From: Planctomycetota bacterium
Lineage (GTDB): Bacteria; Planctomycetota; UBA1135
Assembly (NCBI GenBank): GCA_026421205.1
Contig: JAPKBM010000005.1
Span: forward strand, 25,754-89,753
Length of the DNA stretch: 64,000 bases
Reading direction: 5' to 3'
Positions 36,432 through 37,994 of this stretch are shown piece by piece (position 1 is the first letter of the stretch; each line of letters starts with the position of its first letter). Both the position numbers and the translations under genes were made by a program. The notes under the pieces were generated by a model, which saw nothing but the letters and a program-made list of their open reading frames with translations, was not told the DNA's origin and did no database searches.

Positions 36432-37994
36432 ATGAGTTACCAAGTCCTCGCTCGCAAGTATCGGCCGCGCACTTTTGCGGATGTCATTGGGCAGGACCAC
36501 ATTGTCAAGGCTTTGAGCAGAGCCCTTGAAAAGGACCGGATTGGGCAGGCCTATTTATTAATCGGCCCACGAGGCACGGGAAAGACGAGTACCGCGCGCA
36601 TCCTGGCTAAGTCCTTGAATTGCGAAAAAGGGGAGTCCGTTGCACCTTGCCTTGCCTGTGGCCCTTGTTTGGAAATTGAATCTGGCGCGGACATGGACGT
36701 CGTGGAAATTGACGGGGCTAGTAATAACGGTGTTGATGACGTCCGAGATTTACGGGAGAAAGTCCATTTCCGGCCTATGCGAGACCGGCGAAAAGTCTAC
36801 ATTATTGATGAAATTCAACGACTGACGGGTCCAGCATTTGACGCTCTCCTTAAAACGTTAGAGGAACCTCCCGACCACGTCATTTTTCTTTTTGCCACGA
36901 CTGACCCGCACAAAATTCCTGACACGATTGTTTCCCGATGCCAAACCTTTGAATTCCGACGCCTTCGCGAAGATGATATTCTCAACAAGCTTCTGGATAT
37001 CTGTCAAAAGGAAGGGGTGGAAGTTTCCGAGGATGTCTTGGGCGCAATTTCTCGCGGTTGTCGCGGTGGCCTTCGAGATGCGGAGTCCATGTTGGATCAG
37101 TTATTGGCGGTCACCGAAGGGGTCCCTACCCTAGAAGAGTTGGAAATGGTGGCGGGGCTGGCCCGACCTGAGTGTTGGCAGATTCTTCTAGAAGCCGTGT
37201 CCAATCAAGATGGTGCTCAAATATTGAAATCCGTAGATGCCTTTCTTCAGCGGGGGGGTACAGAGCGAGATTTTGTAGAGCAACTTGTGGATGCCTTGCG
37301 TGATTTGCTGCACGTCGCACTTCTTGGTGAAGATGTTCTTGGTGTGGTTCCTTCGGCGGATCGCCAACAAAGAATGGTGAAATTGGCGGGGGCTTTAGGC
37401 CAAGACAGGCTGGAGACTTTGATGGGAATGTTCTTTTCTCTTGAGTCTAGAATGAATCAATCTCCACTTTCTGCGCGCGCCCTTTTGGAGTGGACCTTGC
37501 TTCGTGCTTCTCGCCTGGGGGATTTATTGGAAACCACGACACTCCTTCAAAATTTACGGAGTGGAACTCTCACCGCCACCTCTGTTTCTGCAGAGCCCCC
37601 CGCGCCGGTAAAAAAGCCTGAGCCCGTAAGGGCGTCGGCGCCCACCCTGCCGTCGCCACCAACCTCCCCAACCCCGCCCACTCCATCGCCGTCGGCGACA
37701 TCTATTCAAGATTTGCTCAAAGAAGTCCGCGAGCGACGTCCTTCCTTAGGCCGCGTTCTCACGGACTATCTCGTCGAGGGAACCTTGCATGAAGACCGCG
37801 TCGAAGTCGTGTTGCAACCTCTGGAAGACCGGTCCCGCCGTATGGTCGAAGACCCCATTGAGAGCCGTTTCCTCAAGGAGCTTCCGAGCAGTCCAGGCCC
37901 TTGGACGATTCGTTACTTCGAAAAAGTCCAACGGCACGACCCTCTCGGCGAGCAACTGAAATCCTCCTTTGAGGGCGTAGAGGAGGTACCCTAG
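36432..37994 (+). CDS. dnaX: DNA polymerase III tau/gamma subunit
   Basis: YQVLARKYRPRTFADVIGQDHIVKAL, GPRGTGKTSTARILAKSLNC, Pro-rich linker, C-terminal domain. Confidence 0.97.
   Translation: MSYQVLARKYRPRTFADVIGQDHIVKALSRALEKDRIGQAYLLIGPRGTGKTSTARILAKSLNCEKGESVAPCLACGPCLEIESGADMDVVEIDGASNNGVDDVRDLREKVHFRPMRDRRKVYIIDEIQRLTGPAFDALLKTLEEPPDHVIFLFATTDPHKIPDTIVSRCQTFEFRRLREDDILNKLLDICQKEGVEVSEDVLGAISRGCRGGLRDAESMLDQLLAVTEGVPTLEELEMVAGLARPECWQILLEAVSNQDGAQILKSVDAFLQRGGTERDFVEQLVDALRDLLHVALLGEDVLGVVPSADRQQRMVKLAGALGQDRLETLMGMFFSLESRMNQSPLSARALLEWTLLRASRLGDLLETTTLLQNLRSGTLTATSVSAEPPAPVKKPEPVRASAPTLPSPPTSPTPPTPSPSATSIQDLLKEVRERRPSLGRVLTDYLVEGTLHEDRVEVVLQPLEDRSRRMVEDPIESRFLKELPSSPGPWTIRYFEKVQRHDPLGEQLKSSFEGVEEVP
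37610..37643 (+). promoter_or_regulatory. Candidate programmed -1 frameshift site in dnaX
   Basis: In-frame A-AAA-AAG (37610-37616); -1 frame GCC then TGA (37619-37621); hairpins GCCC-GTAA-GGGC (37622-37633) and GGGCG-TCGG-CGCCC (37630-37643). Confidence 0.75.

Follow-up and report, generated by a model that had tools for sequence, protein, structure and literature searches.

A candidate -1 frameshift site in the dnaX linker of a planctomycete and other putative dnaX recoding layouts in its phylum

The dnaX gene of a planctomycete carries, in the linker that follows domain III, an A_AAA_AAG heptamer in the -1 register with a stop codon one codon further on in the shifted frame, and we consider it probable, from the nucleotide sequence, that ribosomes slip measurably at this site; that the slippage would also be selected (i.e. 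programmed) has about an even chance. In E. coli, the same heptamer yields a short second protein (gamma) from dnaX, the signal additionally comprising an internal Shine-Dalgarno sequence about 10 nt upstream and a stable stem-loop about 5-6 nt downstream. If the planctomycete site is programmed, we infer that it is a lineage-restricted gain and not an inherited E. coli signal.

The slippery site and its stimulators

The gene lies in a stretch of 64,000 nucleotides (the window) from a genome of 2.15 Mb that is 88% complete; the genus comprises no other genome, the family 26. The dnaX product matches NCBIfam TIGR02397 (391 bits, residues 3-358), and the gene is flanked by tRNA-Ser genes and the SRP RNA upstream and by ybaB and recR downstream, the order dnaX-ybaB-recR being common to the planctomycete window and E. 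coli. Among viral contigs, distant relatives alone were returned. The gene and the elements of the site are:

36432..37994, + strand: dnaX, DNA polymerase III gamma/tau subunit, with a zero-frame tau-like product of 520 aa
37610..37616, + strand: A_AAA_AAG slippery heptamer, -1 register, codons 392-394 (GTA AAA AAG)
37616..37621, + strand: -1 frame codon GCC (37616-37618), then stop TGA (37619-37621), for a predicted short product of 396 aa
37617..37618, + strand: CC immediately 3' of the heptamer, shift-prone in E. coli (PMC5009743)

The first A of AAAAAAG falls at codon position 3, which places the heptamer in the -1 register, and we could thus confirm the earlier note, which had described an in-frame heptamer identical to that of E. 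coli dnaX and a slip that reads GCC and then TGA. The predicted -1 product (C-terminus ...EPPAPVKKA) is gamma-like and ends after domain III; as also proposed in that note, the site falls inside the Pro-rich linker, about 20 codons past the end of domain III (residue 374, Pfam). In E. coli, A_AAA_AAG ranks in the top three -1 motifs for efficiency when stimulators are present and still exceeds 0.10% without them (PMC4066793), and CC is the most shift-prone dinucleotide after the heptamer (PMC5009743). We propose an intrinsically slippery -1 site that would have arisen independently in the window lineage: the tRNA-Lys(UUU) paired with AAA AAG would move back by one base and pair with AAA AAA, a step favoured by the following CC and the downstream structure. 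Some of the ribosomes would then terminate at the TGA, so that a gamma-like subunit of 396 aa would be made alongside the tau-like one of 520 aa.

The supply of tRNA-Lys is consistent with such slippage. The sole tRNA-Lys found by ARAGORN is tRNA-Lys(UUU), and a family-wide search with its gene gave, at the loci checked, only more UUU genes and tRNA-Asn. Strong slippage on AAG in E. coli has been ascribed to its sole tRNA-Lys, whereas Thermus has two (PMC5009743); a sole tRNA-Lys(UUU) is a slip-prone situation, although this evidence is supportive only, because the genome is incomplete (a Gly-GCC tRNA, for instance, was likewise not found). Elsewhere in this genome, contig C55 holds a degenerate tRNA-like sequence (L155:305-385, 27.8 bits) with the loop TTCTTAA, similar to tRNA-Lys(CUU). 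It was rejected as a tRNA-Lys(CUU) gene: its arms are broken, ARAGORN makes no call, and the callable similar places in relatives are other tRNAs, none of them for Lys. A stretch on contig C13 (L154:280-375, 40.8 bits) resembles tRNA-Arg(TCT) in its 3' part and is atypical in its 5' half; again ARAGORN makes no call, and the stretch is perhaps a relic or an integration site.

Downstream of the heptamer, the hairpin and the overlapping alternative stem announced in the earlier note are both present in the sequence, together with an extension of the hairpin and a larger competing fold:

37622..37633, + strand: GCCC-GTAA-GGGC hairpin, 4 bp, 5 nt past the heptamer, -6.7 kcal/mol
37618..37638, + strand: 8-bp bulged extension of the 4-bp hairpin (CTGAGCCC/GGGC-G-TCGG), from 1 nt past the heptamer; 30-nt fold, -11.6 kcal/mol
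37630..37643, + strand: overlapping alternative stem GGGCG-TCGG-CGCCC, -7.9 kcal/mol
37631..37657, + strand: larger competing stem, the predicted minimum, 14 nt past the heptamer, -15.8 kcal/mol

By folding, the 45 nt that follow the heptamer rank 14th among 506 windows in the gene (top 3%), the corresponding rank in E. coli dnaX being 22 of 629. Dinucleotide shuffles of the 40-60 nt downstream gave z values of only -0.6 to -1.2, and those of the 101 nt around the site (upstream hairpin included) a z of -2.96; whole-gene synonymous shuffles reached the hairpin fold in 3 of 400 cases, a test that the locally GC-rich linker inflates. An internal Shine-Dalgarno sequence was not found upstream of the heptamer, where the best anti-Shine-Dalgarno pairing is -2.3 kcal/mol, compared with -6.9 kcal/mol in E. 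coli. The view that the site matches the E. coli architecture therefore stands for the heptamer, the register, the stop one codon later and the location past domain III, ahead of the C-terminal part (with a sole tRNA-Lys(UUU), as far as found, as a further likeness), but only in part for the stimulators, since the Shine-Dalgarno element is lacking and the hairpin, although rightly spaced at 5 nt, has only 4 bp, with competing folds, instead of a long stem.

Chance, inheritance and transcriptional slippage

The main rival to a functional site is a heptamer that arose by chance in a linker evolving fast and under weak constraint; like other unselected A_AAA_AAG sites, it may slip a little but would have no role, with tau made alone or gamma made otherwise, as in Caulobacter, where the gamma form arises via proteolysis. 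We give this explanation somewhat less than an even chance. Its frequency agrees with chance, as A_AAA_AAG occurs twice in the window for 1.9 occurrences expected from codon usage (60 ORFs, 19,514 codons), and among 247 dnaX genes AAAAAAG after codon 345 has no preference for the -1 register (33/16/27 by register). Additionally, many unselected cases are known in E. coli (PMC5009743). Against it stands how seldom heptamer, immediate stop and position would coincide: with the codon usage of the window the expected rate is about 1e-4 per codon, which for a linker of 55 codons amounts to about 0.5%, and at about 10% of window positions a -1 stop follows within one codon. When the codon order of the dnaX linker was shuffled (2000 trials), the heptamer was regained in 0.3%, and followed within 10 codons by a -1 stop in 0/2000. 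The combination is unusual, but it was chosen out of a large scan, and the shuffle figure alone is no proof of function.

The comparison with relatives also bears on chance. The earlier note had suggested looking for the heptamer across the phylum and in close relatives, and there it is not conserved: A_AAA_AAG is absent from all other readable dnaX linkers of the family, within which the sequence and length of the linker turn over completely. At the family level (the genus being represented by the one genome) this is the kind of outcome that the note had named as refuting its reading. Across the phylum, 6 of 169 planctomycete dnaX genes (some truncated) have AAAAAAG in the -1 register at codons 345-470, the window gene included; the other five carry it at codons 435-464, and their G+C content does not exceed 49%. 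An E. coli-like A_AAA_AAG was found in no other planctomycete linker of the phylum sample. In L034, a further named record from the phylum, an A9G run occupies codons 381-382 and the -1 stop lies at a distance of 23 codons.

Since the other family linkers lack it, the site does not represent an E. coli-like system inherited within the phylum. The identical heptamer and the -1 stop one codon on would fit a signal that shares its origin with the E. coli one, by inheritance or by transfer; nevertheless, the surrounding nucleotides differ from those of E. coli, the other sampled planctomycete linkers hold no such heptamer, and the published alignment of the signal draws on nine proteobacterial genera (PMC3711429), so that homology is refuted as far as sampled and has a negligible probability.

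Slippage of the RNA polymerase on the A run, as in Thermus, would instead give mixed mRNAs, some of them ending at the TGA. The window gene shares with Thermus thermophilus dnaX a homopolymer A run with a nearby stop and a zero frame that encodes tau, and the dnaX genes of Thermus and of several planctomycete families (f30, with runs of A9-A10) fit this type. However, the run has six A in the window gene and nine in Thermus, and selection against slippage becomes evident in many bacteria at a run length of about nine (PMC1088944); the A6 run being too short, we rejected this explanation and consider it very improbable. In the two-ORF dnaX genes, in which tau is made by recoding (PMC3711429), the recoding takes place, as proposed here, at the end of the gamma part, but in the window gene tau is the zero-frame product and it is the short form that would need the shift.

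Strong heptamers in the linkers of the same family

The linkers of the family (codons 366-440, 22 linkers) were scanned for the three heptamers named most efficient in PMC4066793, leaving out the dnaX of G011, which is split over contigs. Four strong heptamers were found (in the window gene, L012, L019 and L021), each with a -1 stop within 9 codons, and none in the other two registers of these linkers; the remaining 10,555 codons of the family genes contain two, both at codon 49, in the P-loop. A further linker, read later (L367, genome G019), has no strong heptamer within the linker proper; one occurs at codon 441, already inside the domain that follows. The L012 site is C_CCA_AAG at codon 388, and L019 and L021 (two species of one genus) have G_GGA_AAG at codon 372, with a 6-nt spacer, a perfect 10-bp stem and the -1 stop four codons on.

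This excess was evaluated with tests that we devised after seeing the data. In codon-order shuffles of the family linkers, 0.43 heptamers were expected for the four found (P(>=4) 0.0015, post hoc) and 0.12 heptamers with a near -1 stop, again for four (P 0.0005, or 0.001 for three or more genomes, post hoc). In the same region of other planctomycete families (10,249 codons), three heptamers occur and no near stop accompanies any of them; Fisher tests of the family against these families gave P 0.009 for heptamers and 0.0003 for heptamers with a near stop (0.037 and 0.0025 with L019 and L021 counted once), also post hoc. The excess of top-strength heptamers is thus confined to the linkers of the window's own family, which argues against chance.

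The L019/L021 pair also gives a view of synonymous sites. At the site, 16 of the 17 codons for the same amino acid are identical, for an average of 62%; within the first 390 codons an equal synonymous identity is reached at the 5' end only, and over the whole gene 21 of 488 15-codon windows reach the linker value. Among ten same-family pairs, a linker peak of synonymous-site suppression was observed for L019/L021 only (14 of 15 codons, 370-386). This peak backs constraint, in a supportive but not decisive way, and the L019/L021 site appears to be a better E. coli-like candidate than the window site itself.

There is moderate evidence, in our view, that some family members make a short DnaX by -1 shifting at non-homologous sites. 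A broader scheme, in which the fast-evolving family linker acquires and loses -1 sites for a short DnaX time and again, so that the function recurs while the signal turns over and is non-homologous between genera, is rather unlikely on present evidence. Most family members are without a strong heptamer site, and a short DnaX is therefore not needed by all of them. For the window gene, a functional recent gain and a chance heptamer in a loose linker are near even, the functional gain being slightly favoured by the family pattern and by the low odds of finding heptamer, stop and position together.

Other dnaX layouts in Planctomycetota

Several other planctomycete families have unusual dnaX genes. 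In family f16 (L349-L365), all 17 complete genes have a zero-frame stop at codon 384-397 and a -1 frame that holds the C-terminal part of DnaX and stays open for 59-231 codons, with a C-terminal motif shared by most. Sixteen of the 17 have a C_CCN proline codon as one of the last two codons ahead of the stop, and the stop itself coincides with, or lies only a few bases from, the start of a strong stem-loop (-19 to -35 kcal/mol); in the exception (L354), C_CCG lies four codons further up and a GGCCGG/CCGGCC pairing spans the stop. Two of the -1-frame tails, compared with the DnaX C-terminal family PF12362 (Pfam), gave a sub-threshold match only. The layout suggests that ribosomes shift by -1 at a stop codon directly adjoining a stem-loop, which would make tau without poly-A, and the case is stronger than that of the window dnaX site; the described class of tau made by recoding is mostly tied to poly-A (PMC3711429).

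A candidate for a second layout of tau made by shifting is family f10 (L334, L336 and L337), whose three dnaX genes all have G_GGA_AAA_GCC_TGA at codons 375-378, 77 codons open in the -1 frame and downstream structure. Runs of 9-10 A occur in all six dnaX genes of family f30 (L229, L262, L263, L264, L267 and L272), and a run of A10 in those of L102, L103, L104 and L110; these runs lie in the linker, near codon 380-418, several with close stops in other frames, and are candidates for Thermus-like transcriptional slippage. Family f28 (L257, L259, L265, L282, L285, L286 and L290) has unusually short dnaX genes, of 416-471 codons. Among the papers accessible to a literature search on dnaX frameshifting in Planctomycetes, none describes such recoding layouts.

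If the window site is indeed functional, the well-studied dnaX frameshift of E. coli would have evolved a second time in a remote phylum, with an identical heptamer, an equally placed stop and weaker stimulators, and the parts that are needed (slippery site, single tRNA-Lys, near stop) would be separable from the optional ones. The several dnaX recoding modes apparent in Planctomycetota outweigh the window site itself, and bear on the question of why cells want two DnaX lengths.
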